The position numbers and the translations under genes are program-made. A stretch of DNA of 64,000 nt, from positions 1 through 64,000 of the IMG/VR virus record IMGVR_UViG_3300028197_001221; one strand, written 5' to 3'. Below the pieces are notes generated by a model. It searched no databases. It was not told the origin of the DNA and saw only the letters and a program-made list of their open reading frames with translations. This document shows, piece after piece, positions 12,739 to 33,513 of the stretch; within the stretch, counting starts at the first letter, position 1; each line of letters starts with the position of its first letter. This DNA comes from a virus.

Positions 12739-12938
12739 ATATAATTGGTATATTTGAAATTGCTGCTGGAGTTATTCTGGCTAAACTTGTTATAGGAATA
12801 TTGAATGAAAGTTATTGGTATAAATGGGAGAGAGTACGCTTGGAATTTAACAAGCTATTCAGTAGACGCAAACGACAAAAGGAAGAGATCAAAATTCCAC
12901 GTTCGTGCAAGAAATCTCTTGAAGACTATCTACCATAG
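12735..12938 (+). CDS. small membrane protein overlapping the next gene
   Basis: The predicted 67-residue protein has one hydrophobic segment (residues about 4-24, IGIFEIAAGVILAKLVIGIL) followed by an aromatic and basic tail. GGAAG lies upstream and the ATG overlaps the preceding TGA. The last 134 bases run in a different frame inside the nuclease gene that starts at 12805. The nuclease is well conserved from its start, so one strand here would encode two proteins. No family was recognised. This gene may be real or a remnant whose tail was lost by insertion. Confidence 0.5.
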   Translation: MNIIGIFEIAAGVILAKLVIGILNESYWYKWERVRLEFNKLFSRRKRQKEEIKIPRSCKKSLEDYLP

Positions 12939-13230
12939 TTATAGAATACTTGAAGAAGTAAAATTGCCGGGGAGTACGCCATCGCACAGAAAAGGCGTAC
13001 TGTATTTAGACTTTTATATACCACAGATTATGCTGGCTGTAGAAGTGCATGGTCAACAGCATTATAAGTATACGCCATTCTTTCACAAGAATAAAGCAGA
13101 CTTTGCTATTGCAAAAGCTAAGGATGAAGATAAAATAGAATGGTGTGAATTGAACAAGATTGATATAATAGTATTGAAGCACTCTGATACAGATGAGCAA
13201 TGGAGAGATCAAATTGAAAACGGCGAGTGA
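12805..13230 (+). CDS. Vsr/DUF559-like endonuclease-fold protein
   Basis: The protein has 141 residues. The N-terminus MKVIGINGREYAWNLTSY, the stretch RSKFHVRARNLL and the core LYLDFYIPQIMLAVEVHGQQ followed by HY resemble a phage protein family with a very-short-patch-repair/PD-(D/E)XK-like core. Asp of LDFYIP and Glu/His of EVHGQQH are the likely catalytic residues. EWCELNKIDIIVL follows, as in the family. AGGA precedes the ATG. It may process DNA in recombination or act as a homing-type nuclease. It links the pseudopilin cassette to the replication genes and overlaps genes on both sides. Confidence 0.65.
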   Translation: MKVIGINGREYAWNLTSYSVDANDKRKRSKFHVRARNLLKTIYHSYRILEEVKLPGSTPSHRKGVLYLDFYIPQIMLAVEVHGQQHYKYTPFFHKNKADFAIAKAKDEDKIEWCELNKIDIIVLKHSDTDEQWRDQIENGE

Positions 13231-14082: not shown

Positions 14083-15549
14083 ATGGAAGAAAAACTTTTA
14101 GATATAGGTGCAGAACGAGCCGTATTAGCTGGTCTTTTGCAAAACGGCGTTGATACATATGTAAACATATCAGATTTACTATCTAGTGACAGCTTTGTTA
14201 ATCCTAATAATAAAATTATTTACAAATGTATAGAACATATTATAAGTAATGATCAAAAGCCAGAAATTGCTACGCTTTTAGCTGCTGCTGAACAATTAAA
14301 TTTCATAGAACAAATAAGTACTAAGCAGGAGCTTAACTATATCAACTCTTTGTATGAGTTTCCTGTTTCACAGGATAATATATTTAGCTTTGCCGTACAG
14401 ATGAAGAAGTTTGAGTTTGCACGTAAGATAAAAAACCTTACAGTAAAAGTTCATAAAGACATGGACGATGTTAATGGATCAGAAAGCATTAACGAAATCA
14501 TACAAAAGCTAGAAGATCCAGTAACAGATTTTTTGAGAGAAGACGATGGCGGTGAAAACCCAGAAAAAATAGGAGAAGGTATAGAAGATTATGTCACATT
14601 CCTCGAAGAAAATAAATGCGATATCATTGGTATACCCACGGGATTCTCTAGATATGACCAAGCCATTGGGGGTGGTCTTAGAAGAAAATGCGTTGACCTT
14701 GTATCTGCAAGACCCAAAGTTGGTAAATCAGTGTTCGCTGATAATGTTGCCCTTAACGTATCTTCCACGGGAGTACCCGTATTAGTATTAGATACCGAGA
14801 TGTCTAAAGAAGACCATCTTAATAGACTAATTGCTAACATAAGCGGTGTGCCTATCAACGAAGTCGCCACGGGACAGTTTATTGATGATCCTGTAAAGCA
14901 CGATAAAGTAAAAGAAGCTGTTGCTAAAATAGAATCAATCCCTTACAGCTATATAAGTGTGGCTGGCAAGCCATTTGAAAATATTGTGAATCTTATAAGA
15001 AGATGGATAGTTCAGGAAGTTAAATCTGACGAGTCGGGTAAAACCAATGATTGTTTAATTATATATGATTATCTGAAGCTTATGTCTTCTTCATCTATAA
15101 CAAACAATATACAAGAGTATCAAGCTTTAGGGTTTCAAATCACTTCTTTGCATAACCTTTGTGTAAAGCTAGACATACCCTGTCTATCCTTTGTTCAATT
15201 AAATCGTGACGGTATAACAAAAGAAAGCACTGACGCAGTTAGCGGGTCTGATAGACTTGTTTGGCTATGCACATCTTTTAGTATATTCAAATCTAAATCT
15301 ACAGAAGAACTTGCTGAAGACGGTCCAAATGCTGGTAATAGAAAATTAGTACCCATTGTTTCTAGACACGGCGCTGGATTAGATGATGGAGATTATATTA
15401 ATATGCAAATGCAGGGCGCACACGCTAAACTTTTAGAACTAAAGACAAGAAATGAATTTAAAAATGCTCCTGTTGGCGACACTGGATTAATTTCAGACAT
15501 AGATAAGATTAAAGATGAACTTAAAGAAACTAAAGAAGACTCTGAATAA
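14083..15549 (+). CDS. dnaB: replicative DNA helicase, DnaB family
   Basis: At 488 residues this is a full-length DnaB-like protein. The N-terminal helical domain (residues 1-125, AERAVLAGLLQNG) corresponds to the primase-interacting domain. The RecA-like motor domain begins GIPTGFSRYDQAIGGGLRR, then the Walker A ARPKVGKS (209-216), DTEM (237-240), the Walker B CLIIYDYLKLM and a motif with FVQLNRDG. It should form the hexameric helicase that unwinds the fork 5'-3' and stimulates the primase encoded next. The two genes overlap by 35 bases, which supports coupled expression. Confidence 0.92.
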   Translation: MEEKLLDIGAERAVLAGLLQNGVDTYVNISDLLSSDSFVNPNNKIIYKCIEHIISNDQKPEIATLLAAAEQLNFIEQISTKQELNYINSLYEFPVSQDNIFSFAVQMKKFEFARKIKNLTVKVHKDMDDVNGSESINEIIQKLEDPVTDFLREDDGGENPEKIGEGIEDYVTFLEENKCDIIGIPTGFSRYDQAIGGGLRRKCVDLVSARPKVGKSVFADNVALNVSSTGVPVLVLDTEMSKEDHLNRLIANISGVPINEVATGQFIDDPVKHDKVKEAVAKIESIPYSYISVAGKPFENIVNLIRRWIVQEVKSDESGKTNDCLIIYDYLKLMSSSSITNNIQEYQALGFQITSLHNLCVKLDIPCLSFVQLNRDGITKESTDAVSGSDRLVWLCTSFSIFKSKSTEELAEDGPNAGNRKLVPIVSRHGAGLDDGDYINMQMQGAHAKLLELKTRNEFKNAPVGDTGLISDIDKIKDELKETKEDSE

Positions 15550-16537
15550 GAATATTGAAACTGTATTGCAGAAGCTTGGCATAGAATACGAAGCTTTTAG
15601 TGATAATATATATTCAGTATGCCCATGTCACGAACATAGTGATAACCCAAGAGCTTTTTCTTATTCTATTGATAAAGGAATATGGAAATGTTGGACTAGA
15701 GATTGTCAAAATGAATTTAACAATGACATATTTGGTTTAATAAAAGGTGCGTTATCGCAAAAAACTGGAACAGACCTTGAGTTTAAAGATGTATTAAAAT
15801 GGGTATGTGAAGAATTTAAGATAGACAAAGGTAGTTACGAAGGATCTTCAACCCCTATAGAGCAAGAAGATGATTTTACAAATTTAATTAAATCAATATC
15901 TATAAAGTCTAATACTAATTTTAACGACAAGGAAATAAATAATCCTTACTCAGTACAATATCCCTCGGATTATTTCTTATCAAGAGGATTTAAAAAAACT
16001 ACTTTAAAATATTTTAACGTGGGAGATTGTCATGATACAGGTATAATGAAAGAAAGGTCTATAATACCTATCCATGATGACTCTGGATATAAGCTAGTGG
16101 GAATGATTGGTAGAACAATGAAGGCGTATAGAATGCCAAAATTTTTGATATATCCATCTGGCTTTAATAAGCGTCACTATTTTTATAATTATCATAGGGC
16201 AATAGACAAAATCAAAGAAACTAATTGTTTATATATAGTAGAGGGCCAAGGAGACGTTTGGAAACTTCATGAGGCTGGAGTAAAGAATGCTGTTAGTATT
16301 TTTGGCAAAAGTATTTCCAAAGATCAAGAAAATAAGATAAAGAAATTACCCATAACAAGACTCGTAATACTCATGGACAATGATCAAGCCGGGAGAGAGG
16401 CTAGAGTCCAAATACAAAGACAGTTTGGAAGAATGTATAGGCTTACATTTCCACATTTAAGCGATAAAGATGTTGGAGACATGTCAGTATATAAGATTAA
16501 AAAAGATATTTTAAGCAATTTAAAAGGAACTTATTAA
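15515..16537 (+). CDS. DNA primase with zinc finger and TOPRIM domain
   Basis: The protein has 340 residues. The zinc-binding part is SVCPCHEHSDNPRAFSYS followed by WKCWTRDCQ (C36, H39 or C38, C59, C64), a CHC2-type arrangement. The TOPRIM domain shows LYIVEGQGDVWKL (catalytic Glu near 240) and LVILMDNDQAGREA (Asp-x-Asp near 286). It makes RNA primers for lagging-strand synthesis, probably bound to the DnaB-like helicase. It lacks the C-terminal helicase-binding domain of E. coli DnaG and is close in size to phage T4 gp61. The start overlaps the helicase gene. Confidence 0.88.
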   Translation: MNLKKLKKTLNKNIETVLQKLGIEYEAFSDNIYSVCPCHEHSDNPRAFSYSIDKGIWKCWTRDCQNEFNNDIFGLIKGALSQKTGTDLEFKDVLKWVCEEFKIDKGSYEGSSTPIEQEDDFTNLIKSISIKSNTNFNDKEINNPYSVQYPSDYFLSRGFKKTTLKYFNVGDCHDTGIMKERSIIPIHDDSGYKLVGMIGRTMKAYRMPKFLIYPSGFNKRHYFYNYHRAIDKIKETNCLYIVEGQGDVWKLHEAGVKNAVSIFGKSISKDQENKIKKLPITRLVILMDNDQAGREARVQIQRQFGRMYRLTFPHLSDKDVGDMSVYKIKKDILSNLKGTY

Positions 16538-19862: not shown

Positions 19863-20074
19863 AAAAGTGGAAAGATCATCTAGATCACAACAACATGACT
19901 TACTGGCAACATTTAAAATTTGCCGTAGGTCATGGTGTATGTTGTATCAAAGCTGGTGTATATTTATGTATACATGGTTTACTACCATGTTTTAGACGCA
20001 GAGCTGGTGAAAGATTAGTTCATAGGTTAGACACAAACTTCACAGAGCATAAGAAAAATGTCAATAATAAGTAA
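19847..20074 (+). CDS. DUF6356-like small protein
   Basis: The 75-residue protein reads NNMTYWQHLKFAVGHG, then IKAGVYLCIHGLLPCFRRRA and a C-terminal charged helix. This matches the DUF6356 layout: MTYxxH, a semi-hydrophobic helix, then IHGLxP. The middle segment (about 25-48) is probably membrane-associated. Function unknown. The gene overlaps the genes on both sides by 16 and 17 bases, which supports translation. Confidence 0.65.
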   Translation: MQSLVKKWKDHLDHNNMTYWQHLKFAVGHGVCCIKAGVYLCIHGLLPCFRRRAGERLVHRLDTNFTEHKKNVNNK

Positions 20075-20753
20075 TATAGACAAGTTAATTAAATCAGAGC
20101 CAAATATAGATGACGTTGGTTATCTGAAAGATAAGATGACATATCAAGATGATATTAATAATAATATTGTTAAGATAGATTGGTTGAAAATTCTTGATGC
20201 TCCCCCTAAAAATAGTAACCCAAAGACTACTAGAGAACTACACGCTATTAGTAAGGCTACTGTAAACAGAACTTCCAAAGAAGTAGATTTAGTCATAAGG
20301 GTAGACAGAGATCCCGTGGTTTTATTTGTTGATTTTTTGGAAAAGAAAAATTTGAAATTCCCAAAGAGTAAATTTTATACATTTTATGATTTCCTTGAGC
20401 CTTATATATATGGATTGAAATATCACTTCAATAGGGCTAGGCCAGAACAACTTGCCCACTATCATAATATAAACTTAAAAATTCTTTATACAGATAGTCA
20501 TCACACGCCGTCTTATCCTAGTGGTCACGCTATGTACGCTGAACTGGCAGCTAGTATATTATCTGACGAACATCCAGAATACAAATCTAATTTTTTTGAA
20601 ATAGCAAAATTTTGTGGATTAGCTAGAGTTTTACAGGGAGTACACTTTCCATCAGATAACGACGCTAGCGTTAAAGCGGTTAGTGTATTATATCCTTTAA
20701 TAAAGAAAGGTATAGAAAATGTCAAAACCAGTAAAGAGTTTCCCTTTAAGTGA
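20058..20753 (+). CDS. PAP2-superfamily phosphatase
   Basis: The protein has 231 residues. The three PAP2/acid phosphatase motifs are all present: KYHFNRARP (K-x6-RP, near 120), PSGH (near 153) and ARVLQGVHFPSD (R-x5-H-x3-D, near 190). Both catalytic histidines and the phosphate-binding Arg/Lys are kept, so it should be active. PAP2 enzymes dephosphorylate lipid phosphates, undecaprenyl pyrophosphate or small phosphoesters. No run of membrane segments is evident, so it is more like soluble class A acid phosphatases. The substrate is unknown. The gene overlaps its upstream neighbour and contains the start of a 32-codon frame at its end. Confidence 0.85.
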   Translation: MSIISNIDKLIKSEPNIDDVGYLKDKMTYQDDINNNIVKIDWLKILDAPPKNSNPKTTRELHAISKATVNRTSKEVDLVIRVDRDPVVLFVDFLEKKNLKFPKSKFYTFYDFLEPYIYGLKYHFNRARPEQLAHYHNINLKILYTDSHHTPSYPSGHAMYAELAASILSDEHPEYKSNFFEIAKFCGLARVLQGVHFPSDNDASVKAVSVLYPLIKKGIENVKTSKEFPFK

Positions 20754-20888: not shown

Positions 20889-22460
20889 TTGAATTGGTTT
20901 CCATTGAAAAACTTTACGCATTATAGTTTATTAAAAGGCTTTTCTAAGCCACATGAATTAGCGAAAGTATGTGCTGATAAAGATTATCCAGCTTGTGGTA
21001 TCACAGATTATAAGTCTATATCTGGCGCAGTTTCTTTTCACCAAGCTTGTAAAAATGTTGGAATCAAACCTATCATTGGTTGTTCGTTTGACAGCACTAC
21101 TGTATACGCAAAAAATAAAGATGGCTGGCACGACCTGATTCAGATGGTATCTATGACAGATGAAAAAGGTAATATGTCCAAGGACATAGCTAAGGATATA
21201 ATTAGTAGAAATAACTTGATTGCGTTACAGAAATCCAAAGACAATATCAAGCCTGCGTATTATGTAAAGAAAGAGCAGTCTGTTTTGCACAGGGTATTAT
21301 TATGCTCTGCTCTAAAAACCACCTTGCCTAAAATCAATGCCAAAATTAGAAACAATAATCTAGAACCAGACATTTTGGAATACTTTAATAAAGATGATAA
21401 GTGTGTAACAGAGGGCGAAGTTACTAAAGAGTTAGAACATATATATAATTCGTGTGAAGAGTATGACATATTGAATCCCCCCATGCTTCCAAATTTTGTA
21501 TGTCCTAACGGTATGTCTCAAGAAGATTATTTAACACAGATGGCGAGAAGCGGCTACACAGAATTACTTAAACCAAAAGTGGGAAATGATAAAGACAAAC
21601 AAAAAGTATACGGTGAAAGATTTAAGAAAGAATTAGAAGTTATTAGAAACGCAGATCTATTTGGATATTTTTTAATTGTACAGGATATAATTAGACACAT
21701 AGAAAAGGACATGGGGTGTTTAGCTGGTCCGGGTAGAGGTTCTGCTGCTGGATGTTTAATATCATATCTAGTAGGCATTACCAAGATAGATCCGGTAGAA
21801 CACGATCTGCTGTTTGAAAGATTTTATAATGCAGGACGTAACACTGGAGGTAACGTGTCTCTTCCAGATATTGATATGGACGTTCCGGGTAAAAGGCGGG
21901 ATGATGTTATAGATTATCTAAAAGATACATACGGACATGAACATGTCAGTCAAATGATTACATTTGGAAGACTACAAGGACGTAGCGCAATAAAAGAAGT
22001 GCTTAGAATAAATGAGGCTTGCTCTTTTAGCGAGATGAACGCTATCACAAAGAGTATACCTAACGAGGCAGACGTTTCCGATCAGCTTGCAGAGATGGAT
22101 GATGAAGACAGGTCTATTATAAGATGGTCCTTGATAAATAGAGCAGATGATTTAAGAGATTTTTGTCACATAACAGACGATGGAAAACTTGAAGGTGATT
22201 ATGCAGAATACTTTCAACAAGCTATTGACATAGAGGGTACATTTAAAACTCAAGGTAAACACGCTGCTGGGGTAGTTATATCTAAAGACAAACTAAAAGA
22301 TGTCTGCCCTATGATACAACAGAAGGGGTCTACAGAGAAAATAGCAGGATTAGAAATGTCTGATCTAGAAGCACTGGGTCATGTAAAATTTGATGTTCTA
22401 GGAATTAATCTTCTAGACAAACTTATGAAAATAAAGGAATTGATTAATGATAGAGGTTAA
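20889..22460 (+). CDS. dnaE: DNA polymerase III alpha subunit, N-terminal part (split gene)
   Basis: This 523-residue protein equals the first half of bacterial DnaE. The PHP domain is at residues 1-200 (THYSLLKG, GITDYKSISGAVSF, GIKPIIGC) but lacks the HxH metal pair, so PHP is probably inactive, as in E. coli. The polymerase part shows GCLAGPGRGSAAG, LPDIDMD with two catalytic aspartates, QGRSAIKEV and GKHAAGVVIS. KFDVLGINLLDKL holds the third Asp near the end. It stops at LINDRG, where E. coli DnaE continues. The start is TTG 20889, seven bases after AGGAGA. The remaining half is encoded at 23611-25176. Confidence 0.92.
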   Translation: MNWFPLKNFTHYSLLKGFSKPHELAKVCADKDYPACGITDYKSISGAVSFHQACKNVGIKPIIGCSFDSTTVYAKNKDGWHDLIQMVSMTDEKGNMSKDIAKDIISRNNLIALQKSKDNIKPAYYVKKEQSVLHRVLLCSALKTTLPKINAKIRNNNLEPDILEYFNKDDKCVTEGEVTKELEHIYNSCEEYDILNPPMLPNFVCPNGMSQEDYLTQMARSGYTELLKPKVGNDKDKQKVYGERFKKELEVIRNADLFGYFLIVQDIIRHIEKDMGCLAGPGRGSAAGCLISYLVGITKIDPVEHDLLFERFYNAGRNTGGNVSLPDIDMDVPGKRRDDVIDYLKDTYGHEHVSQMITFGRLQGRSAIKEVLRINEACSFSEMNAITKSIPNEADVSDQLAEMDDEDRSIIRWSLINRADDLRDFCHITDDGKLEGDYAEYFQQAIDIEGTFKTQGKHAAGVVISKDKLKDVCPMIQQKGSTEKIAGLEMSDLEALGHVKFDVLGINLLDKLMKIKELINDRG

Positions 22461-22938
22461 AGTTACAGATTATATGAGAGTTAAAGCCAGAAGCATGGCT
22501 AAAGATTTAGGCAAGCTTAAAAATTCTATAACCAAAGGTGAAGGTAACGTTGCTGGTTTTGTAGGAGAGTTGATAGCTTTGGATTATCTTGGTGGGGTTA
22601 AAGCCAATACTTATGATTTCGATATTGTAAGTAATGGTAAAACATATGATGTGAAAACTAAGCGATGTACAAGTCCTCCCAAGCCACACTACGATTGCTC
22701 AGTAGCTGCATTCAATACAAAACAAAGATGTGATATTTACTTTTTTGTAAGAGTACAGTTTCAAGGCGACAGACCAATAAAAGCGTGGGTGTTGGGACAA
22801 AAAGACAAGACTGAGTATTTTAAGCAAGCTAGAAAACTAAATAAGGGTGATATTGATCCAAGTAATAATTTCAAGGTTAAAGCAGATTGTTTTAACTTAA
22901 GCATTAACAAACTAGAGAAACTAGAAAAGAAGGACTAA
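22447..22938 (+). CDS. PD-(D/E)XK-superfamily nuclease inserted between the polymerase halves
   Basis: The protein has 163 residues. FVGELIALDYLGG (Glu 41), TYDFDIVSNGKTYDVKTK (Asp 59, Asp 68, Lys 70) and CDIYFFVRVQ fit a restriction-endonuclease-like core with the order E...D...D-x-K. The ATG overlaps the end of the polymerase N-part by 14 bases. A single-domain nuclease of this kind could be a free-standing homing endonuclease that split the polymerase gene, or a DNA repair enzyme. It has no recognisable DNA-binding extension such as NUMOD or HTH modules. Confidence 0.65.
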   Translation: MIEVKVTDYMRVKARSMAKDLGKLKNSITKGEGNVAGFVGELIALDYLGGVKANTYDFDIVSNGKTYDVKTKRCTSPPKPHYDCSVAAFNTKQRCDIYFFVRVQFQGDRPIKAWVLGQKDKTEYFKQARKLNKGDIDPSNNFKVKADCFNLSINKLEKLEKKD

Positions 22939-22940
22939 TC

Positions 22941-23621
22941 ATGGCTAACAGAGACTACATTGTATTTGATTTTGAAACTGGTAGTAGAAATCCCAACAAA
23001 ACTCAGCCTACACAGATTGCAGCAATTGCGTTAGACGGTCGTAATCTATCTATGAAGGGATCTTTCAACAGCGAGATTAAACCTATACTAGATGATGACA
23101 AGGCTATAGCTGCTGGATTAGACCCCATTGAAGATGGGGCTTTAAAAGTAACTGGTAAAAATAGAAAAGACCTAGCCAAAGCTCCAGCTTTAAAATCTGT
23201 ATGGAAAAAATTCTGCTCCTTTGTAGACCAGTATAATTGGAAAAAAGATCCATTCTTTAATCCTATACCAGTAGGGTTTAACATTATTGGTTTTGACATG
23301 ATTATTATTAATCGTTTATGTAAAGAATATGGCCCGTTTGACGATGGCAGACAACAACAAAAAATCTTTAGCAAGATTCATAAGTGTGATGTTATGGACA
23401 ATATGCATATGTGGACTGAAGGTGATCCCAGTATCAGATCAATTAGCATGGACACTCTTCGTGACCGAATGGGTCTTAGTAAAGAAAATGCTCACGATGC
23501 ATTGCAAGATGTTAAGGATACGGCTAATATATTTATAAAGCTATTGAAGACTCATAGAGCAGTTTATCAAAACATTGAACTAGACAAAGCGTTTGCAAAC
23601 GGAAATTTGTATGTCAAATGA
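22941..23621 (+). CDS. DnaQ-type 3'-5' exonuclease (proofreading epsilon-like)
   Basis: The protein has 226 residues and DEDDh family motifs: Exo I YIVFDFETGS (Asp 10, Glu 12), Exo II GFNIIGFDMIII (Asp near 119) and Exo III AHDALQDVKDT (His-x4-Asp near 185-190). It removes mispaired 3' ends. Because the PHP domain of the polymerase looks inactive, this enzyme probably supplies proofreading. Its position between the two polymerase halves suggests it works with them. It starts two bases after the nuclease stop; its end overlaps the start of the polymerase C-part. Confidence 0.85.
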   Translation: MANRDYIVFDFETGSRNPNKTQPTQIAAIALDGRNLSMKGSFNSEIKPILDDDKAIAAGLDPIEDGALKVTGKNRKDLAKAPALKSVWKKFCSFVDQYNWKKDPFFNPIPVGFNIIGFDMIIINRLCKEYGPFDDGRQQQKIFSKIHKCDVMDNMHMWTEGDPSIRSISMDTLRDRMGLSKENAHDALQDVKDTANIFIKLLKTHRAVYQNIELDKAFANGNLYVK

Positions 23622-25176
23622 ATATGACGATAAGGATACGTGGAAATTATTTCTAGAGGGTAAAACCAAAGGTGTGTTTCAGCTAGAAAGCAACCTTGGT
23701 AAGTCTTGGTCAAAAAAACTTGCTCCAAATAATATTGAAGAATTATCTGCGCTTATAGCTATCATTCGACCGGGATGTTTAAAAGCATTCGTTGATGGTA
23801 AATCTATGACCCAGCATTTTATTGATAGAAAACATGGCAGAGAAGAAGTGACTTATCTACATGAGTCTCTAGAAGAAATTCTATTACCTACCTATGGAGT
23901 CCTAGTATACCAAGAACAATCTATGCGTATTGCGCAAAAAGTAGCAGGATTTAATCTACAAGAAGCAGACGAGCTACGTAAAGCAATTGGTAAAAAGAAA
24001 GCTGACTTGATGGCAAAGGTTAAGAAAAAATTTATTGCTGGATCAAAGAAAGTTAGCATGGTAAGTAAAGAAGAATCAGAAGAAATTTTTAGTTGGATTG
24101 AAAAATCTTCTAGATACGCTTTCAATAAATCACATAGTATATCTTATGCAGTCTGCTCTTACTGGAGTGCTTACCAAAAGGCTCATAACACTAAAGAATT
24201 TTTCTTATCTTATCTGTATTATGCTAACGAAAAACAAGACCCTCACCAAGAAATATACGAATTAATTTCTGAAGCCAAGCTGTTCGACATAGAACCAAGA
24301 ACACCAAGTGTTGCAAACTTTGACGTAAAATTTAATATAAAGAAAAACAAAGTGTATTTTGGTATTAAAGATATCAAATCTCTCACTGGTAAAACTGGAG
24401 ATAAGGTTATAGATGCTATATTAGAAGCAGAAGCTGAACTAAATAAGAAGATAAGTAAGTTTAATTGGATTGAAATGTTATTATTTTTAGCGCCAAAGAT
24501 GAGTTCTACTGCCTTCAAAGCTTTGGCATCTATAGGATTCTTTAGAGATTTTAACGGTAAGATATCTAGGAATAAAGCAATATATGATTATGATATATAT
24601 AGAATGCTCACTAAGGCAGAGCAAAGTTGGATACAAAAAAAATATGAATCTAAAAAGTGGACAGGCTTTATTGACTGCCTTAAAGATCTATCACCTACAA
24701 AAAAGAATGGTGGCGGTACAAGCAGGGTAGAAAGACAACAAATTGTTGAAAATGAAATACAACTTTTAGCAGACCCGCCGTATGATTTAAATGATGATCC
24801 ATCTTGGATTATAGATCAAGAGACTAGGTATTTAGGGTGTCCTGTAACAATGTCTAAGATAGATACAGTTGATAAGTCTTCTGCCAATACTACATGTAAA
24901 GATATAGTCAATGGCAAGAACGGTAAAGGCATATGCGTGGTAGCAAATATACAACGTATGGCAGATTACACAATCCAAAAGGGCGACTCGAAGGGTAAGG
25001 TCATGTCTTTTCTGACAGTAGAAGATGACACATGTGTGCTAGACAGTGTAGTTATATTCCCCAAAGTTAAGCAAAAATATAAGTATATATTATATGAAGG
25101 AAATAATCTAATGTTTTGCGGATCTGTAGGTAAAAAAGACTCGTCTTTAATTGTAGATAAAGTTCATGAAATTTGA
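23611..25176 (+). CDS. dnaE: DNA polymerase III alpha subunit, C-terminal part (split gene)
   Basis: The protein has 521 residues from the ATG at 23611 (GGAA upstream); an in-frame TTG at 23593 is a weaker start. It opens YDDKDTWKLFLEGKTKGVFQ, equal to the DnaE sequence just after the palm aspartate. It continues through IRPGCLKA, TQHFIDRKHGREEV, PTYGVLVYQEQSMRIAQKVA and ELRKAIGKKK (fingers), then FNKSHSISYAVCSYWSAYQK, and ends in an OB-fold-like region. Both halves together (1044 residues) cover DnaE with no loss at the junction. There is no intein at either edge, so the subunits probably assemble without splicing. Confidence 0.92.
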   Translation: MSNEYDDKDTWKLFLEGKTKGVFQLESNLGKSWSKKLAPNNIEELSALIAIIRPGCLKAFVDGKSMTQHFIDRKHGREEVTYLHESLEEILLPTYGVLVYQEQSMRIAQKVAGFNLQEADELRKAIGKKKADLMAKVKKKFIAGSKKVSMVSKEESEEIFSWIEKSSRYAFNKSHSISYAVCSYWSAYQKAHNTKEFFLSYLYYANEKQDPHQEIYELISEAKLFDIEPRTPSVANFDVKFNIKKNKVYFGIKDIKSLTGKTGDKVIDAILEAEAELNKKISKFNWIEMLLFLAPKMSSTAFKALASIGFFRDFNGKISRNKAIYDYDIYRMLTKAEQSWIQKKYESKKWTGFIDCLKDLSPTKKNGGGTSRVERQQIVENEIQLLADPPYDLNDDPSWIIDQETRYLGCPVTMSKIDTVDKSSANTTCKDIVNGKNGKGICVVANIQRMADYTIQKGDSKGKVMSFLTVEDDTCVLDSVVIFPKVKQKYKYILYEGNNLMFCGSVGKKDSSLIVDKVHEI

Positions 25177-25224: not shown

Positions 25225-25530
25225 ATGAATAATTGTTGTTTCACAGGATACTTTACAGAAAACCCACAAACCTCTGTGGTGGACAATGTAGTATTAGCAG
25301 AGTTCGTTATAGTTACTTATAACTATAGAAAAACAAAAAGCACTGGGGAAAAAAGTAAAGTGCCAACGTACTTACACTGTGAAGCATGGCATACGGGTGC
25401 AGAAACGCTAGAAAGATTTGCTACAAAGGGAACGAAGATGACATTTAATGCTACTGCTAAAAATATATCAAGAGACGACGAGAGTATAGTATTTAGAATA
25501 AACGAATTCGATTTGTGCATGGAGGAATAG
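25225..25530 (+). CDS. ssb: single-stranded DNA-binding protein, short form
   Basis: This 101-residue protein consists of one OB fold: CCFTGYFTENPQTSVVDNVV, LAEFVIVTYNYRKTKSTGEK, THLHC-like YLHCEAWHTGAETLERFATK, and MTFNATAK. These are the core blocks of bacterial SSB. The usual disordered tail ending in an acidic DDIPF tip is missing; the protein ends FDLCMEE. Without that tip it cannot use the standard bacterial docking contacts, though the acidic end may replace them. AGGAG precedes the ATG. It lies just after the polymerase C-part, consistent with a replisome role. Confidence 0.85.
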   Translation: MNNCCFTGYFTENPQTSVVDNVVLAEFVIVTYNYRKTKSTGEKSKVPTYLHCEAWHTGAETLERFATKGTKMTFNATAKNISRDDESIVFRINEFDLCMEE

Positions 25531-25531: not shown

Positions 25532-27187
25532 ATGAGAAAAAAAAGAATATTGTTTTGTAGTGAAGCAACTTTTTTAAATACAGGTTACGCCACGTACACA
25601 AGAGAAATACTAAATTATTTAAGTAGTACAAACAAGTATGAAATAGCAGAACTAGCAGCTTATGGTCAACCAGATGACCCTAGAATATCAACAATACCTT
25701 GGAAATTTTATCCAGCAGCACTGCCAAAAAATTCAAGTCAAGAACAACAGAGAGAGTTTGCTTCTAAAGCTACAAATCAATTCGGAGAATATGTATTTGA
25801 AAGCGTTTGTTTGGACTTTATGCCAGATGTAGTTTGTGACATTAGAGATTTTTGGATGATGGACTTTATTGATAGATCTCCCTATAGAAAATTCTTTAAT
25901 TGGTGCATCATGCCAACTGTTGATGCAGAACCTCAAGCTAGACAGTGGATAGCTACCTACCAAACAGCAGACGCTTGCCTAAGTTATTCTAATTGGTCTG
26001 GAGATTTACTTCAGAAACAGTCTGGTAATAAAATTAATTACATCGGTTCTGCACCTCCTTCCGCACACCCAGCGTATCAACCTGCTGAGAACATTGATGA
26101 AATTAAAAATAGTATTGGAATAGATAAAAATTGGAAGATTGTTGGAACGGTCATGAGAAACCAACGTAGAAAACTATATCCAGATTTGTTTGAAGCATTT
26201 AAATTACTTTTAGAAAAAACTAAAGATCCTAACCTTAGATTATATTGTCACACTAGTTATCCAGACATGGGTTGGGATGTACCTGAATTGTTACAACAGT
26301 ATAAGTTATCTTCTAAAGTATTGTTTACATACGTCTGCACTGAAACCAACATGCCCTTTGCTTCTTTGTTTAAGGGCGCAAAAGCAGAATCTCCATACAC
26401 TAAAAAACTTACAGGAGTTATGGCAAATGTAAAACAAGGATTAACTTACGAACAGTTGTCTAATATAATTAATGTTTTTGATGTATATATTCAATATGCA
26501 AACTCAGAAGGATTTGGTTTACCACAAGTAGAAGCTGCTGCTTGTGCAATTCCAGTTATGAGTGTAGATTATTCTGCAATGTCAAGTGTTATAAGACAGC
26601 TGGGAGGCACTCCCCTTCCTGTCAAAACTTTCTATAAAGAATTAGAAACTGGATGTCTTAGAGCAGTTCCAGACAATGATGCTACAGCGAGTTTGCTTGA
26701 AGAATTTTTTAAGATACCTAAAACAATGAGAAATAAAAAAGGTTTTGAATGTAGAAATAATTTTTTAAAACATTTTCAGTGGGATAAAAGTGGCGCTGAA
26801 TGGGAAAAATATTTTGATAGCGTAGAGTTAAAGGATGTGTCAGAAACTTGGAAGTCTCCACCTGACATACAACAATCAGCACCTAAGCCTGATAATACTC
26901 CTGAAGTATCTTATCAAGAGATAGCATATTTTTTAATAAACCAAGTGTTAAAACTACCAGAAAAATGCAATGAATATATGTTTTCTAGAACAATAAGAGA
27001 TCTGATGTATGGTAATGTTACTAATATGACAGGGGGGATGTATATGAATGAGTGTTCTACGGCCTTTGAAAACACGCCTCATAGATATCCTTTTAATTTT
27101 GACATAGCTTATCAAAAGATGAAAGAAATAAGAGACAATATAAATCAATGGGAACAACGTAGAATGGAGGTTATGAATAACAAATGA
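25532..27187 (+). CDS. glycosyltransferase, GT-B fold (group 1/GT4-like), 551 residues
   Basis: The N-terminal Rossmann half begins KRILFCSEATFLNTGYATYT. The C-terminal donor-binding half contains KIVGTVMRNQRRKLYPDLFE and the conserved IQYANSEGFGLPQVEAAACA, where the Glu-x7-Glu-type GT4 motif sits. A tail of about 120 residues beyond the catalytic part has no known match. It is the first and largest of the cluster; GGAGGA precedes the ATG. The acceptor is unknown: DNA, virion proteins or host surface glycans are all possible. Confidence 0.85.
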   Translation: MRKKRILFCSEATFLNTGYATYTREILNYLSSTNKYEIAELAAYGQPDDPRISTIPWKFYPAALPKNSSQEQQREFASKATNQFGEYVFESVCLDFMPDVVCDIRDFWMMDFIDRSPYRKFFNWCIMPTVDAEPQARQWIATYQTADACLSYSNWSGDLLQKQSGNKINYIGSAPPSAHPAYQPAENIDEIKNSIGIDKNWKIVGTVMRNQRRKLYPDLFEAFKLLLEKTKDPNLRLYCHTSYPDMGWDVPELLQQYKLSSKVLFTYVCTETNMPFASLFKGAKAESPYTKKLTGVMANVKQGLTYEQLSNIINVFDVYIQYANSEGFGLPQVEAAACAIPVMSVDYSAMSSVIRQLGGTPLPVKTFYKELETGCLRAVPDNDATASLLEEFFKIPKTMRNKKGFECRNNFLKHFQWDKSGAEWEKYFDSVELKDVSETWKSPPDIQQSAPKPDNTPEVSYQEIAYFLINQVLKLPEKCNEYMFSRTIRDLMYGNVTNMTGGMYMNECSTAFENTPHRYPFNFDIAYQKMKEIRDNINQWEQRRMEVMNNK

Positions 27188-28296
27188 AAATTCTTTACAT
27201 AGCTCATTTTAGTGAAAATTCTAACTGGTCTTTATCTGCAATTCACAAAGTTCTTGCTTTGTTGAATAATGGTTTTGAAGTAGTTTGTAGAAACGCTGCA
27301 TTAAATGATGTATCACAAATAGAATTGCCACCCGAAATACAAAATTGTTTTAAAAAAGATTTAAATAATATTGATATATGCATACAGCATGTGTTACCAA
27401 CAATGATAGTAGGAAGTACAAAATTCAAAAAAAATATTGCATGTGTACATTTAGACACAGAGATTAGCAAAGATCACTGTTGGATACACAATCTAAGTAT
27501 GGTTGATGAAGTTTGGGTTAACAACAAGGATAGCCTATCCAACCTATTAGACCTTAATATAAATGCTAAGTACATTCCTAATTGTTTCCATATTGATACT
27601 TATAAGAATCAATATAAACTCCTAGACTTTGGAGACATGAATAATAAATTTAAATTTTATACAGTGTCTTCCGTGGGCGAAAAAAACAATTTAAATTCTA
27701 TTATTAGATCATATTTTAGTACTTTTGATATATCCGATAATGTATGTTTTGTTTTTAATATCTACGACTCTTCCGGTAACGATGATTCAATTAGAAATTA
27801 TTTTTCAGATTACATAAATAAAAATAAAAAAATTATGAGGGTTAATATTAACGATGCTTATTTCCCCCCTGTGTTTCTTATTACGAGACCCTTGAATCCT
27901 ATGGAATTACAGAGTTTGCACACGACTTGTGATTGTTACGTAGAGTTAAGTAAGAGTGTTGATTTCTCTACTCCAGCTTTTGAGGCTATGTGTCATGGAA
28001 CAACCCCTGTGTGCAGCAATAATGGTAGCTACAAGGACTACATATCAGAAGATAAAAACTCTGGGACTCTAATAAACGGCATCAAGAATATATGTTTTGA
28101 TCATAGTCCTCCTTCTCCACATTTGTTTACTGGAAAAGAACTATGGTTTTCATCAGACGAGAAAGAATCTAAACAAGCAATGTCTTGGTATTATGAAAAT
28201 AGTAAATCTATAGATAGAAACGTTGGAATTCAAAATGCACAAAATTTTGACTATAAAGTAGTCGCTGAAAAGATGAAGGAAAGTTTTAATGAATAA
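27184..28296 (+). CDS. glycosyltransferase, GT-B fold, 370 residues
   Basis: The start MKILYIAHFSENSNWSLSAI and the C-terminal motif VELSKSVDFSTPAFEAMCHG followed by TTPVCSNNGSYKDYI show a GT4-like enzyme whose donor site carries Glu before the MCHG turn. The middle segment VDEVWVNNKDSLSNLLDL is the typical link between domains. Its start overlaps the previous stop (ATGA), and its end overlaps the next gene by 8 bases, so the cluster is translated as one unit. Confidence 0.8.
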   Translation: MKILYIAHFSENSNWSLSAIHKVLALLNNGFEVVCRNAALNDVSQIELPPEIQNCFKKDLNNIDICIQHVLPTMIVGSTKFKKNIACVHLDTEISKDHCWIHNLSMVDEVWVNNKDSLSNLLDLNINAKYIPNCFHIDTYKNQYKLLDFGDMNNKFKFYTVSSVGEKNNLNSIIRSYFSTFDISDNVCFVFNIYDSSGNDDSIRNYFSDYINKNKKIMRVNINDAYFPPVFLITRPLNPMELQSLHTTCDCYVELSKSVDFSTPAFEAMCHGTTPVCSNNGSYKDYISEDKNSGTLINGIKNICFDHSPPSPHLFTGKELWFSSDEKESKQAMSWYYENSKSIDRNVGIQNAQNFDYKVVAEKMKESFNE

Positions 28297-28813
28297 AATA
28301 AAAAGTTGGATCGAAAAATGCAACAGAAAAAAGAGCAAATGCAACTGTATAATTTTTACAACAAACGAAGATTATGAAGTAAAGCTTTCTAAAACTGAAC
28401 ACAATTTCTATGCTTTTAGTTCAGAAGACCTGAAAACTTGGGATGATGAAGAGCATAAAAGACCAGACAATTATTTCGTATTGCCCCAAAACGAGATACC
28501 TATATGGATAAATTTTGACGTTGTTATAGTTCAACATAAGATAGGTCAATATAGTAAGGGTAAAAGAATATCAGACTTGTTAAAAATACCTATGATTGTT
28601 GTAGAGCATTCAATGCCTAGAGTGATTAGCAAAATGGAACAACAGATAGACCAGTTAAAATCTATGCGAGGACATTTAAATATATTTACTAGCTCAGAAT
28701 CCGCAGACGCTTGGGGGATAGAAGATAGCTATGTAATTAACAACGATCCCGAAGAAGACTTTATTACACAATGGACAGTATTATTGGAACAATTTTATGA
28801 AAGGTTAACATGA
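28289..28813 (+). CDS. glycosyltransferase-like N-terminal domain protein
   Basis: The 174-residue protein resembles only the acceptor half of a GT-B enzyme. It contains NFDVVIVQHKIGQYSKGKRI, IPMIVVEHSMPR and LNIFTSSESADAWGIED, a set seen in small proteins of other phage glycosyltransferase clusters. The nucleotide-sugar half is absent, so it may be an accessory subunit of a neighbour or a reduced gene. AAGGA precedes the ATG. Confidence 0.65.
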   Translation: MNKIKSWIEKCNRKKSKCNCIIFTTNEDYEVKLSKTEHNFYAFSSEDLKTWDDEEHKRPDNYFVLPQNEIPIWINFDVVIVQHKIGQYSKGKRISDLLKIPMIVVEHSMPRVISKMEQQIDQLKSMRGHLNIFTSSESADAWGIEDSYVINNDPEEDFITQWTVLLEQFYERLT

Positions 28814-29232
28814 ATCTACAAATTTTAGCAGATAAAAAAGATGCCATAGAAGGATTCAATGTAGCACAGGTAGCTAATGGTGAGTGCAAAGATATTTTTA
28901 ATGTTATAGATAGTTCTTGTGAGTCAGTAATTTTAGATGGTGCTATGGATCATTTAGAATACGATAAAGCGATTGAGTTGCTACATCAATCAATTAAAAA
29001 AGTAAGATTACAAGGTAGTTTAGTTGTAAGAGGCGTGTGTCTCGAAAAGATGTATAGAGATTATGAATCTGAACAAACAAATATTGGGGTTATAAATTCA
29101 GTAATTAAAGATATAAAATCAATACAAAGTTACAAAGATATTATAGCTGTATTATCTTCTTCTAAATTTACAATAGACACAATTTCTTTTTCTAATTTTT
29201 TCTATGAAATTAAATGTTCAAGGATGGACTAA
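28810..29232 (+). CDS. methyltransferase-like protein, reduced
   Basis: The protein has 140 residues. SVILDGAMDHLEYDKAIELL followed by SIKKVRLQGSLVVRGV corresponds to strands 4-5 of a class I methyltransferase (acidic residue, helix, then the Gly-containing turn before strand 5). The SAM-binding GxGxG loop is not visible. Similar shortened methyltransferase-like genes are common in phage glycosyltransferase clusters. Catalytic activity is doubtful. The start overlaps the previous stop (ATGA). Confidence 0.55.
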   Translation: MNLQILADKKDAIEGFNVAQVANGECKDIFNVIDSSCESVILDGAMDHLEYDKAIELLHQSIKKVRLQGSLVVRGVCLEKMYRDYESEQTNIGVINSVIKDIKSIQSYKDIIAVLSSSKFTIDTISFSNFFYEIKCSRMD

Positions 29233-29969
29233 TGGCAAAAAGATTAAATCAAAGAGTAAAGACAGAAAAAAGGCTCGTCAGCTTTGCTATACTCTATGAT
29301 CAACAATCAAGTAAAAGTAAAAACCAACAGCTACAAATGGCTATGGTCGATCATCAATTAAAATTGTTGGATAAACAAATAAACTCTATAAATAAAAAGT
29401 ATTCAAAAAATGAGATTATTATATGCGTAGGTTATCAATCTTACATAGTAATTAATCATTTACATAAAAACCATAACGGTAAAAATATTAGAATTGTAGA
29501 AAACCCAAACTACCTTGATAGTAACAGTTGCGAGAGCCTGCGCATAATAATGAACAATATACATAATAATAGGATTATCATTATAGATGGGTCTATGTCA
29601 GTACCAGAAAGAGTTTATAGTAAATTAACGCTAGAGGGTTGTCATGTTGTAGTATCTAAAGAAAAAAATGATAATGCAAACATAGGAGCCAACATCTCCA
29701 ACGGAGATAGAATAGAGTATCTGTCTTATGGAGGATGTCAAGAATGTAAAAATATATTGGTGTTGTGCAATCCAAGAGCTATACATTATATCAAAAAGTC
29801 TATGGCTACAGGAGAATATAAAAACAAATTTATATTTGAAATACTAAATGAATTAATAAGTTTAAAATATATAATCAAAGCAATACAGGTTAAGGACAAG
29901 ATTAACCAGATATCAAACATGAAATTTATGAAAAGCAGAGGAAAGAAATATGAGATTTATAATAGATAA
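29232..29969 (+). CDS. nucleotidyltransferase-like protein (GT-A/NTP-transferase fold)
   Basis: The start at 29232 is chosen because AGGA lies 7 bases upstream and the ATG shares a base with the preceding stop; it gives 245 residues. The order of elements resembles sugar-nucleotidyltransferases: a helix VDHQLKLLDKQINSINKKYS, EIIICVGYQSYIVINHL, VENPNYLDSNSCESLRIIM and RIIIIDGSMSVPERV. The N-terminal GxGxR nucleotide loop is missing, so it may be degenerate. A role in making or moving activated sugars for the cluster is an inference. Confidence 0.6.
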   Translation: MAKRLNQRVKTEKRLVSFAILYDQQSSKSKNQQLQMAMVDHQLKLLDKQINSINKKYSKNEIIICVGYQSYIVINHLHKNHNGKNIRIVENPNYLDSNSCESLRIIMNNIHNNRIIIIDGSMSVPERVYSKLTLEGCHVVVSKEKNDNANIGANISNGDRIEYLSYGGCQECKNILVLCNPRAIHYIKKSMATGEYKNKFIFEILNELISLKYIIKAIQVKDKINQISNMKFMKSRGKKYEIYNR

Positions 29970-30804
29970 CTACACAACAGCGTCAAGCTCTCAAGCTCTA
30001 TACTTTGCCGAACACTTAAACGCGATGGAAGAACACCAAGTACACATATTAAAGCAGGGTCAGGAAAGTATATTTGACGCTTTTGATAGATTCAAACCAG
30101 ACTTTTATATAACTTCTACAGGCTTATTATCTAAAGACGCAGTGGTTTATATTAGTCAAAGTAAAGATATTAAACTTATTATTTCTACTAACGATGCTAA
30201 CAATAGCGATATAGTTGAAATAGAATCGGCTCTTTTAAATAGTAAGATTGATTGTCCTTTTTTTATCAGTAATCTACGTGACGAAAAAAAACCTACGACT
30301 AAGAAAACAAAGGTTATAAGGTTTATGGAATGTGTTGATGTTAATTTTGACGCAGATGTAGGAGTGGATTATTCTATAGATAAACTAGTTATGGTGGACT
30401 CTAATACTGACAGTGTTAGAAACTATAGTGGGACGTTTCATGTAGCAAGCCACAATCAAGACATGGCTAAAGTTGTCGATGTGTGCTTACCCATAAATCT
30501 TATGGTTTCCATAATTAGTAAATACAAACAAGTAATCTTTCAAGAGATTGGTGATTACCTACCTCAATTGTTTTTTCATTCTATAGCATCTGGCATACCA
30601 ACGTATTATGACTTAGAGAATAAAGAAAGATCAGACATAATAGATACTATGTGTGATAAAGTGTTTAAGATAGGAAATAAACTTAACTATACATCTTCAG
30701 ATAAAATAACAAATTTCGACAGTCTTAAAGAATTAGTGTTAGAAAAACATACTTCTACAAGAAGAGTAAAGTCTTTACTGTCTCAACTACCTATTAAAAA
30801 ATGA
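29950..30804 (+). CDS. glycosyltransferase-cluster protein, GT-B-like
   Basis: The 284-residue protein begins MRFIIDNYTTASSSQALYFA. The C-terminal part has VIFQEIGDYLPQLFFHSIAS followed by GIPTYYDLENKE, which resembles the donor-side Glu/acidic loop region of surface-glycan glycosyltransferases. Motifs are weak. GAGGAAAG precedes the ATG and the gene overlaps both neighbours. It most likely contributes to the same glycan or modification as the rest of the cluster. Confidence 0.55.
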   Translation: MRFIIDNYTTASSSQALYFAEHLNAMEEHQVHILKQGQESIFDAFDRFKPDFYITSTGLLSKDAVVYISQSKDIKLIISTNDANNSDIVEIESALLNSKIDCPFFISNLRDEKKPTTKKTKVIRFMECVDVNFDADVGVDYSIDKLVMVDSNTDSVRNYSGTFHVASHNQDMAKVVDVCLPINLMVSIISKYKQVIFQEIGDYLPQLFFHSIASGIPTYYDLENKERSDIIDTMCDKVFKIGNKLNYTSSDKITNFDSLKELVLEKHTSTRRVKSLLSQLPIKK

Positions 30805-31529
30805 ATCAGTTAAACAACATAACAATCGTTTCAATTTGTCACAATGATAAATTTAAATTAACCATACAGGCTATGGATTATTCTATGTCACAAATAGGTT
30901 TTGTGAAAAGTCTAATAATTACAGAGGACACGCTAGATCCAGCTTACCGTAGGATGTTAAGACATAGATTGTATCCAAATATTAATGTAAAAACAATCAA
31001 TAAAACCATTGATCTAGTAGAATATAATAGAATGTGTATAGAAGATTTGCACTCTTATATTGACACAGAATATTGTCTATTAATACAATGGGATGGTTTT
31101 GTAATAGATGGAAATAGATGGCAGGATAAATTTTTAGAATATGATTATATAGGCGCACCTTGGAGCGTCCCAAAAGGAGCAAGGAATAATATAGGAAATG
31201 GTGGGTTTTCACTGAGAAGTAAAAAGTTTTTAGAAGTAAGCTCACAATTACGGTACGATCCAGATGACTGTGAATGGCTACATCCAAGTCAAAAATTAGC
31301 ATTACCTGTAGCTCCAGAAGATTGGTACATGTGCTACAGTAATTACTCACACTTCCATAAAAATGAAATAAAATTTCCAGACACAAAAACAGCATATAGT
31401 TTTTCTGTAGAACACTCATCATCAATAAAACCTTACAATCCTTTTGATATAAAAACGTATAAATCTTTTGGTTTTCATGGAGATTTTAACGAAGCAGGAA
31501 TGGAGCAATTAATTGTTAGACAAGAATAA
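30801..31529 (+). CDS. DUF5672-family glycosyltransferase-like protein
   Basis: The 242-residue protein carries the DUF5672 signature: YCLLIQWDGFVIDGNRWQDK, YDYIGAPWSVPKG, NIGNGGFSLRSKKFLEVSSQ and APEDWYMCYSNY. The family adopts a glycosyltransferase-like fold and is often encoded in glycan or phage glycosylation loci. The acidic residues of WDGF and PEDW are likely catalytic or metal-binding. The exact sugar and acceptor are unknown. Confidence 0.75.
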   Translation: MNQLNNITIVSICHNDKFKLTIQAMDYSMSQIGFVKSLIITEDTLDPAYRRMLRHRLYPNINVKTINKTIDLVEYNRMCIEDLHSYIDTEYCLLIQWDGFVIDGNRWQDKFLEYDYIGAPWSVPKGARNNIGNGGFSLRSKKFLEVSSQLRYDPDDCEWLHPSQKLALPVAPEDWYMCYSNYSHFHKNEIKFPDTKTAYSFSVEHSSSIKPYNPFDIKTYKSFGFHGDFNEAGMEQLIVRQE

Positions 31530-32292
31530 AATATCATTTCATGTGCATTTGTTTTATCTAGAACCATCTATATATTTATTAGATAAAATAAAAAATAAAT
31601 TTGATGGAAATATCTATTTATCTATGAATAGTAACGGGAAAGATAATGCAAAAATATTAGAACACGCCCATTCAATATTTACTAATGTGAAACATGTAAT
31701 TGTAGAAAATGTTGGCAATGACCAGTATGGGTTTTTTCACAGCTTCCCCTTAAATACAGACGAAACAGATTGGGTGTTTTACTGTCATGACAAAACCATC
31801 AAAAGAATAGATTGGCTAGATGAAATTATTGATCCAGTTTTAGACTATGAAAAGTTAGACAATGTGCTAGACGACGATGATATAGGATTAATAACAGCTG
31901 GAAAAACTAAGCATCATATGCAAATGTTTACTGAAGATTGTCTTACAAAATTATCTAAATCAAAGAATTATTCGCATAGGTTAAAGATTGTACAAGCAAG
32001 ACATACTTTAACTTGGTATAGGGAACTCCAGTATATCCTACTTACTGATACTGGATTGATAAATACTGATAATTTAAATCCAGATTTTACTGCGGGAAAT
32101 ATGTTCTTAGCTAGAAGACAAGTTATCAAACTAACTCATGACTGTATTCACGAAAGTTTTTTTGAAAACTATTACAGAGAAGATGGTAATGTGGAACATG
32201 CTCTAGAAAGATTTTATTTTTACGTAACTACGTGTTTAAAATATAACAACTTTTTTATAGGACTAAAGGAAGAAGAGGAAGAAAATGATTAA
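31513..32292 (+). CDS. RgpF-like (rhamnan synthesis F) glycosyltransferase
   Basis: The start is TTG 31513 with GGAG seven bases upstream. The 259-residue protein reads ISFHVHLFYLEPSIYLLDKI, then GNIYLSMNSNGKDNAKI, VIVENVGNDQYGFFHSF and WVFYCHDKTIKR. These match the rhamnan synthesis protein F domain, where the VHLFY start and the NVGNDxGPF-like block are conserved. In the middle FTAGNMFLARRQVI fits too. It may add rhamnose-like sugars. The C-terminus is strongly acidic (KEEEEEND). Confidence 0.75.
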   Translation: MLDKNKISFHVHLFYLEPSIYLLDKIKNKFDGNIYLSMNSNGKDNAKILEHAHSIFTNVKHVIVENVGNDQYGFFHSFPLNTDETDWVFYCHDKTIKRIDWLDEIIDPVLDYEKLDNVLDDDDIGLITAGKTKHHMQMFTEDCLTKLSKSKNYSHRLKIVQARHTLTWYRELQYILLTDTGLINTDNLNPDFTAGNMFLARRQVIKLTHDCIHESFFENYYREDGNVEHALERFYFYVTTCLKYNNFFIGLKEEEEEND

Positions 32293-32743
32293 CCTTGGTG
32301 TTTATATGAATTCTCTTGGCGACCCTACTTTGTCTAAAGATATATTTACAGAAATTGGTCGAGGTCTTAATGAAAATCTAATAGAGGATGCTAGTATTTT
32401 TTATGATCAAATTGGACATCTAGAAGACCCTGCTCCTTGTGGACTGTTTCATTCTTCTGACTTATGGAATTTTGAAGGACATCTATTAATCTTGTCTATT
32501 AGTTCTGCGCTAAGAATAGTTAATATAGCTAATCACATACAGATTATACTGGGCTATGGTTGGGGGCAGAAAAATACGCTCGCTACACTAAAAATATTAG
32601 AAGATAAAAAAGTAAATACAATATGTCATTCAGAAAGTTTAGCCAACGATTTTTACAGAATAAGTGGTAGACAGGCTATAGGTTATTCGCCAAACTTTAA
32701 AAACACAATCAACATGATCACGGACCAATACAATGATAAATGA
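32285..32743 (+). CDS. conserved phage protein of the glycosyltransferase cluster
   Basis: The 152-residue protein has the pattern of a small protein often seen in phage glycosyltransferase clusters: ASIFYDQIGHLEDPAPCGLF, DLWNFEGHLLILSISSALRI, IQIILGYGW and TICHSESLANDF. The family has no known function; the fold looks like a Rossmann half-domain. GAGGAAG lies before the ATG. It overlaps both neighbours and is the last gene of the cluster. Confidence 0.6.
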   Translation: MINLGVYMNSLGDPTLSKDIFTEIGRGLNENLIEDASIFYDQIGHLEDPAPCGLFHSSDLWNFEGHLLILSISSALRIVNIANHIQIILGYGWGQKNTLATLKILEDKKVNTICHSESLANDFYRISGRQAIGYSPNFKNTINMITDQYNDK

Positions 32744-33503
32744 AAAAGAAATAGTTAAATTATATACAGATAAAAATAAAAGTACTTATGATCTTGCAAA
32801 GATGTATAGTACATATCCTAATAAAATTAGACGCATACTTGTTAAGCATGGCGTACAATTAAAAACAAAAAGCGAAGCACAAAAAAATGCCCTTGTTAGT
32901 GGTAAGTCTAAGCTACCAACAGAGGGTAAGCATAGGACTAAAGAAGAAAGACTAAAGATTAGTTCTGGTCTTCAAAAAAGATGGCAAAACATAGATAAAG
33001 AAACATATGAAGCACATGTTAATAGGGCTAAATTAAGATGGGTTAATATGTCTCAAGAAGAAAAAAATAACATGACTCAAGCTGCGATCAAAGCTATACA
33101 AATAGCTGGCAAAGAGGGGTCTAAGTTAGAAAAGTTTCTAAGAAATGAGTTTATGAAAAATGGTTTCAATGTACAGGTTCACACTAAGAATATTATACCA
33201 AATGAAAACTTGGAGATAGACCTGTACTTTCCCAATTTAAAGACTATAATAGAAATAGATGGGCCGTCACACTTTCTTCCAATCTGGGGGGAAGAGAAGT
33301 TGCAGAAACAAATAAAATCAGATTCTCATAAAACAGGGTTGATCTTAGGAAAGGGATTTGCTATAATAAGAGTAAAACACCTGTCAGATTCTTTGTCACT
33401 AAGTAATAGAGAAAAATTGAAAGATAGGCTTATTCAGATGTTGCGTGACATCCAAACCAAGTTTCCAAAAAAATCTCAAAGGTATATTGAAATTGAGGCA
33501 TGA
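32733..33503 (+). CDS. Vsr-like (I-Bth0305I-type) homing endonuclease candidate
   Basis: The 256-residue protein has three parts. An N-terminal helix-turn-helix (STYDLAKMYSTYPNKIRRIL) is followed by NUMOD3-like DNA-binding motifs (KHRTKEERLKISSGLQKRW) in the middle. A C-terminal Vsr-fold nuclease reads EKFLRNEF, NLEIDLYFPNLKTIIEIDGP and SHF. The order Glu...Asp...Asp-x3-His agrees with EDxHD homing endonucleases. It is probably a free-standing mobile gene inserted between the glycosyltransferase cluster and the following genes. Its 3' end also contains an in-frame start for the next reading frame. Confidence 0.75.
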   Translation: MINEKEIVKLYTDKNKSTYDLAKMYSTYPNKIRRILVKHGVQLKTKSEAQKNALVSGKSKLPTEGKHRTKEERLKISSGLQKRWQNIDKETYEAHVNRAKLRWVNMSQEEKNNMTQAAIKAIQIAGKEGSKLEKFLRNEFMKNGFNVQVHTKNIIPNENLEIDLYFPNLKTIIEIDGPSHFLPIWGEEKLQKQIKSDSHKTGLILGKGFAIIRVKHLSDSLSLSNREKLKDRLIQMLRDIQTKFPKKSQRYIEIEA

Positions 33504-33513
33504 AAGGACTAAT

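Follow-up and report, generated by a model that had tools for sequence, protein, structure and literature searches.

Can a replicative DNA polymerase of the C family exist permanently as two chains? The question was raised by a viral locus in which the gene for a DnaE-type DNA polymerase III (Pol III) alpha subunit is broken at the palm/fingers boundary of the active site, a cut that a replicative polymerase would be the last enzyme expected to tolerate. The locus lies in a stretch of 64,000 nucleotides (the window), positions 1 to 64,000 of IMG/VR virus record IMGVR_UViG_3300028197_001221, which has 125,941 bp in all. The genes concerned are listed in Table 1.

Table 1. Split polymerase genes and replication-related neighbours in the window
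Feature	Position	Strand	Remarks
DnaB-like helicase and DNA primase genes	14083..16537	+	upstream replication context
DnaE-type Pol III alpha, N half (PHP, palm, thumb)	20889..22460	+	523 aa; TTG start
PD-(D/E)XK-like nuclease gene	22447..22938	+	163 aa; between N half and exonuclease, overlapping the N stop
DEDDh 3'-5' exonuclease	22941..23621	+	226 aa; middle gene; RNase_T 2e-12
DnaE-type Pol III alpha, C half (fingers, HhH, OB fold)	23611..25176	+	521 aa
SSB-like gene	25225..25530	+	directly 3' of the C half

The N half matched the Pfam families DNA_pol3_alpha (1e-68) and PHP (2e-16), and the C half matched DNA_pol3_finger (1e-47). Both halves matched DNA polymerases in PHROG (2e-111 for the N half, 2e-92 for the C half), and a chance match could therefore be excluded. 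The HhH region of the C half was only weakly recognized by Pfam (HHH_6, below the cut-off), and its OB fold was seen in the AlphaFold model. When both halves were aligned with full-length E. coli DnaE, the N half matched to residue 575 and the C half from residue 591; by profile alignment the corresponding limits were 572 and 588. The break was placed at the palm/fingers boundary, between the equivalents of residues 576 and 588. All three catalytic aspartates (D327, D329 and D502, equivalent to E. coli D401, D403 and D555) are in the N half, which ends 21 residues past the third, and they are invariant across 24 relatives. For the C half, ATG 23611 is the most likely start, in agreement with the relatives, rather than TTG 23593; this ATG overlaps the exonuclease stop. 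The FNKSHS motif of the fingers is intact in the C half (residues 171–176). The preliminary description, made from the sequence alone, had claimed two DnaE frames of 523 and 521 residues and a break just after the third palm aspartate, and both points held. Its claim that the frames cover DnaE end to end held only in part: in the profile alignment the match to E. coli DnaE stops near residue 1057, and the C-terminal tau-binding part is missing from the C half.

Relatives were gathered by IMG/VR scans, and duplicates were removed before counting, which left 122 distinct three-gene loci. The order N half, exonuclease, C half was observed in all 122 (66 of type A, like the window, and 56 of type B), and in none of them were the N and C halves in one frame. 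Stop-to-stop open reading frames were also collected from 273 loci, some of which overlap as pieces of one contig; the N half was matched 260 times, the C half 224 times and the exonuclease 210 times, never two of them in the same frame. The 80 bacterial loci retrieved with the same N profile served as a control: the gene was uninterrupted in 77, and the remaining three reflect the end of a contig or draft genes in fragments. The DnaE genes of the isolated phages Zemlya, Skog, hairong, MTATph1 and PS1 are annotated as single genes of about 1030–1200 aa. Uninterrupted genes are the state of bacteria and most isolated phages, and the split families form one clade, among whose members an uninterrupted gene was looked for and not found. 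No close relatives were found in bacterial genomes, so that no provirus or host clue was available.

Purifying selection on both halves is strong (dN/dS about 0.04–0.06). Between the window and its close relative L001, dN/dS was 0.036 for the N half, 0.017 for the exonuclease and 0.059 for the C half, and other locus pairs gave similar values wherever dS was unsaturated. The finger signatures FQLES, IRPG, YQEQ, LRKAIGKKK and FNKSH were near-invariant among the relatives. AlphaFold models of the single chains were confident (pLDDT of 89.9 for the N half and 88.1 for the C half) and matched crystal and cryo-EM structures of Pol III alpha, with best E values of 4e-32 (N) and 6e-20 (C). In these models the break follows the last palm helix (N residues 507–522), and a loop precedes the first helix of the C half. 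No recognizable docking tag common to the N and C halves was found. The models are of single chains only and not of a complex; the physical assembly of the halves is inferred.

The preliminary description had placed a DEDDh exonuclease and a PD-(D/E)XK protein between the halves. The former claim held: besides the RNase_T match, the five catalytic residues D10, E12, D119, H185 and D190 were invariant in 17 sequences, and the exonuclease is the invariant middle gene of the unit in types A and B. The latter rests on motif support only (E41, D59 and D/E68-x-K70, with a D to E exchange in L106), and no match to this protein was found in Pfam, NCBIfam, PHROG or PDB. It is an optional, removable cassette, because L001, with identities to the window of 96, 99 and 94% in the N half, exonuclease and C half, lacks the gene. 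In L001, which represents the minimal unit, the N stop overlaps the exonuclease start and the exonuclease stop overlaps the C start. Homologues of the PD-(D/E)XK-like gene were found upstream of the N gene in two other loci (L037 and L106). At the exonuclease–C junction an endonuclease-VII/HNH-like gene was present in 28 loci, and HNH-like, FkbM methyltransferase or glycosyltransferase genes in further ones. The gap is 620 to over 4000 bp long with unrelated contents, the minimum in types A and B being the exonuclease gene. Given that the gap endonucleases are variable and absent from the minimal form, they could be later arrivals, and an endonuclease may or may not have caused the break. Homing endonucleases have been reported to cluster near polymerase genes (PMC10448857), and phage gene 43 and nrdA are reportedly split with endonuclease insertions (PMC2988022); the nuclease genes in the gap are consistent with both reports. 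In one type B locus a ThyX-like ORF was noticed by eye in an enlarged exonuclease–C gap (L112:9065-9727).

Three arrangements were distinguished. Type A consists of the N gene, exonuclease and C gene, with optional inserts at both junctions. In type B, almost all loci checked had the N gene, a 60-aa ORF, the exonuclease and the C gene. This small ORF (L117:9024-9206) is conserved among type B loci; its function is unknown, and it is possibly an assembly factor. In type C, the N and C genes are about 5–11 kb apart, separated in the two mapped loci by a glycosyltransferase/methyltransferase-like cassette (L138:3022-8001 and L146:2887-7977); cargo genes like those of this cassette occur singly in type A gaps. 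The exonuclease of the type A/B family was not found in 9 type C records, and the proofreader is accordingly not universal. In a maximum-likelihood tree the three types grouped as a single clade (SH-aLRT 100) with a long stem, and type C was the sister of A plus B. The simplest history is that of a single break in the distant past; the exonuclease would have come into the gap ahead of the divergence of A and B, or type C would have lost it. The start of the C half carries a CxC extension in types B and C (L110, L117 and L126), a possible metal site that was lost in type A. The N halves of type C (L233–L246) have about 100 extra residues within the palm region, at profile position ~345. An SSB-like ORF is located 3' of the C gene in the type C locus L126 as well. 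Mosaic exchange of the halves was also considered: the nearest relatives differed between genes in 45 of the 66 loci, a figure inflated by partial contigs, and such exchange was not accepted for that reason.

Among isolated phages, the same break is seen in Rossellomorea phage phiT1 (PV767480), with gp20 of 573 aa, a 49-aa ORF and gp18 of 469 aa. In the maximum-likelihood tree phiT1 fell outside the split clade, but grouping with the clade was not rejected (AU p 0.19); an independent split is thus likely and remains unproven. No relatives of phiT1 were found in IMG/VR. In Bacillus phage KLEB27-3, polymerase pieces of 700 and 431 aa flank an HNH gene, about 30 residues downstream of the clade break. 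A few residues are missing from these pieces and an unrecognized intron cannot be excluded, so a second intein-free split is not claimed for this phage. In Bacillus phage vB_BpsS-140 (L130:2028-5635), DnaE is unannotated and spread over two frames of 363 and 852 aa that overlap; PHP and palm are separated by either a true split or a frameshift.

It had been claimed that neither edge of the break shows an intein, and this held. No intein or Hint domain was matched by Pfam in either half in the window, no Rfam intron was found in the window or in 8 related loci, and in type A only a few residues extend beyond conserved DnaE sequence at the palm/fingers break. Inteins are detectable inside the clade. 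In the type A locus L359 the C gene is broken a second time, at FNK|SHS (L359:3497-6440). The first piece has an Int-N-like tail of ~95 aa (Hint, E 7e-7), and the second an Int-C-like head of ~38 aa that ends SN|SHAVSYA. Between the pieces lies a gene whose product has NUMOD3 and a Vsr-like domain; it matches PDB 3r3p, which we take to be the homing endonuclease I-Bth0305I. The split clade thus includes a fractured gene of the split-intein kind, complete with its Vsr-like homing endonuclease; as the intein remnants occur at this break and not at the palm/fingers break, an intein-repaired and an intein-free break lie side by side in one polymerase. In type C, contiguous inteins, some with LAGLIDADG motifs, were found at several DnaE sites (Pfam Intein_splicing) in the C genes of L145, L146, L148, L150 and L152 and in the N gene of L244. 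These and L359 served as positive controls: none of the inteins was at the palm/fingers break. The split, its conservation, the constraint on both halves and the absence of an intein or known intron are shown by these results.

The reading that we regard as very likely is a permanently two-chain C-family replicative polymerase, translated in a coupled manner with its proofreader and assembled non-covalently; assembly, activity, coupled translation and the origin of the break are inferred. In this view, an ancestral dnaE would have been cut at the palm/fingers boundary before a large phage clade radiated, with no later repair. The stop/start overlaps of the minimal form suggest coupled translation, and therefore the N half, exonuclease and C half may be read as one translational unit in near-equal supply. 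The N chain, with PHP, palm, thumb and the catalytic aspartates, would join the C chain, with fingers, HhH and OB fold, non-covalently. Such joining had been put forward in the preliminary description as a necessity, and it is supported here as the best reading. The exonuclease would be added as a proofreader, probably docked as in the Pol III core. Cassettes could insert harmlessly at the junctions because these already are gene boundaries: a PD-(D/E)XK-like gene in the window, and HNH/endonuclease VII, methyltransferase or glycosyltransferase genes in relatives.

A bolder version of this reading seems unlikely. In it, the replicase would be an obligate complex of three chains, alpha-N, exonuclease and alpha-C, bridged structurally by the exonuclease, and the break would be a lasting docking bay for cassettes, with halves exchangeable by recombination; if the bridge were real, proofreading would be tied to polymerase assembly. 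Less probable still is that the halves are rejoined as proteins by a cryptic split intein, the route known from cyanobacterial DnaE and from fractured phage genes. A split intein does exist in the same clade, in L359 at FNK|SHS, and ordinary inteins exist in type C. However, the type A break has only a few extra residues compared with the ~95 and ~38 aa in L359, and Hint was found by Pfam in L359 and in neither half in the window. It is similarly improbable that an intron removes the gap from the RNA, or that translation bypasses it. Introns of groups I and II that contain endonuclease ORFs are frequent in phage polymerase genes, and an HNH gene separates the polymerase pieces of KLEB27-3, where an unrecognized intron is possible. 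Against this, Rfam introns are absent from the window and the 8 loci, the N frame has its own stop, and the gap, whatever its length, always contains at least the exonuclease gene, which is the most constrained of the three. Unrecognized joining at the RNA or protein level cannot be fully excluded by sequence. Very little also favours a defunct or remodelled polymerase, by decay or by new separate functions of the halves, with another polymerase replicating the phage. Another polymerase was not systematically excluded in the 126-kb record, whose remainder outside the window was covered by family searches alone, and a beta clamp (PF02767) was not matched in the window's own virus record. Nevertheless, the palm and finger signature residues are invariant over deep divergence, both halves are strongly constrained, and the split genes sit near those for SSB, helicase and primase. 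An assembly or sequencing artefact, for which it speaks only that the window is a metagenomic record, is all but excluded and already refuted for the clade, with the same break in 122 distinct loci from many independent assemblies and in the deposited genome of the isolated phage phiT1.

The preferred reading, a two-chain polymerase without protein splicing, can be compared with known systems. In the cyanobacterial split DnaE (Synechocystis/Nostoc), a C-family replicative polymerase is likewise made from two genes, but its break, located at FNKSHS in the fingers, is mended through protein trans-splicing, whereas the phage break is about 170 residues earlier and intein-free. Gene 43 (family B) of Aeromonas phages 25 and 44RR and nrdA of Aeh1 likewise give intein-free two-chain enzymes, with a homing endonuclease gene sometimes in the gap, and the split NrdA of Aeh1 was reported to be active (PMC2988022). 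Those splits concern other enzymes in few phages; the Pol III alpha split is ancient and clade-wide, with an invariant exonuclease in types A and B. The fractured phage genes reportedly described by Dassa et al. 2009 (cited in PMC10448857), which have split inteins and Vsr-like homing endonucleases, are similar in being broken around a free-standing endonuclease gene, and L359 is an actual example. They differ in that intein halves surround their endonuclease, while the nuclease-like gene in the window is optional and without intein halves. In phiT1 (gp20/gp19/gp18) the break has the same position and is intein-free, but the gap holds the 49-aa ORF and no exonuclease. The E. coli Pol III core (DnaE, DnaQ) shares the domain order, the catalytic residues and a separate DEDDh exonuclease; however, its DnaE is one chain with dnaQ outside dnaE, and it has the tau-binding domain that is absent from the phage halves. 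Judged by the criterion that a C-family polymerase is one polypeptide, the phage enzyme does not comply, with separate frames in all relatives and no intein or known intron. Timinskas 2013 (PMC3919608) noted the cyanobacterial split inteins and saw frameshifts, of which at least some are errors, as the main cause of fragmented genes.

Split phage replication enzymes, and a cyanobacterial DnaE split with an intein, are already known. In the open-access literature searched, we found no description of split DnaE in phages, nor of a Pol III alpha that is split across a whole clade without an intein and with a proofreader gene between its halves. Within that scope, assembly from two chains, which is probable here, was not previously known as a stable, heritable form of this polymerase. 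The split is inherited in a large uncultured phage group: an old cut, common to the clade and never repaired. It offers a natural two-chain Pol III alpha for the study of palm–fingers coupling and proofreader docking, for which phiT1, an isolate with the same break, provides a bench system, and it places a mobile-element hotspot inside an essential enzyme. Annotation pipelines that treat half genes as pseudogenes or errors would miss such a polymerase.

Several other features of the window were noted. Very large ORFs of 1373, 4540 and 1691 aa occupy 39119-63994 on the minus strand; the 1373-aa ORF, the only one of the three scanned, had no PHROG match. A homing-endonuclease-like ORF (12805-13230; phrog_9084, 1e-12) lies ~850 bases 5' of the helicase gene, and a PAP2-type phosphatase gene (20058-20753) directly 5' of the polymerase N half. 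A long run of glycosyltransferase-like genes (25532-34616) follows directly 3' of the SSB-like gene, as is also the case in the type C locus L126.
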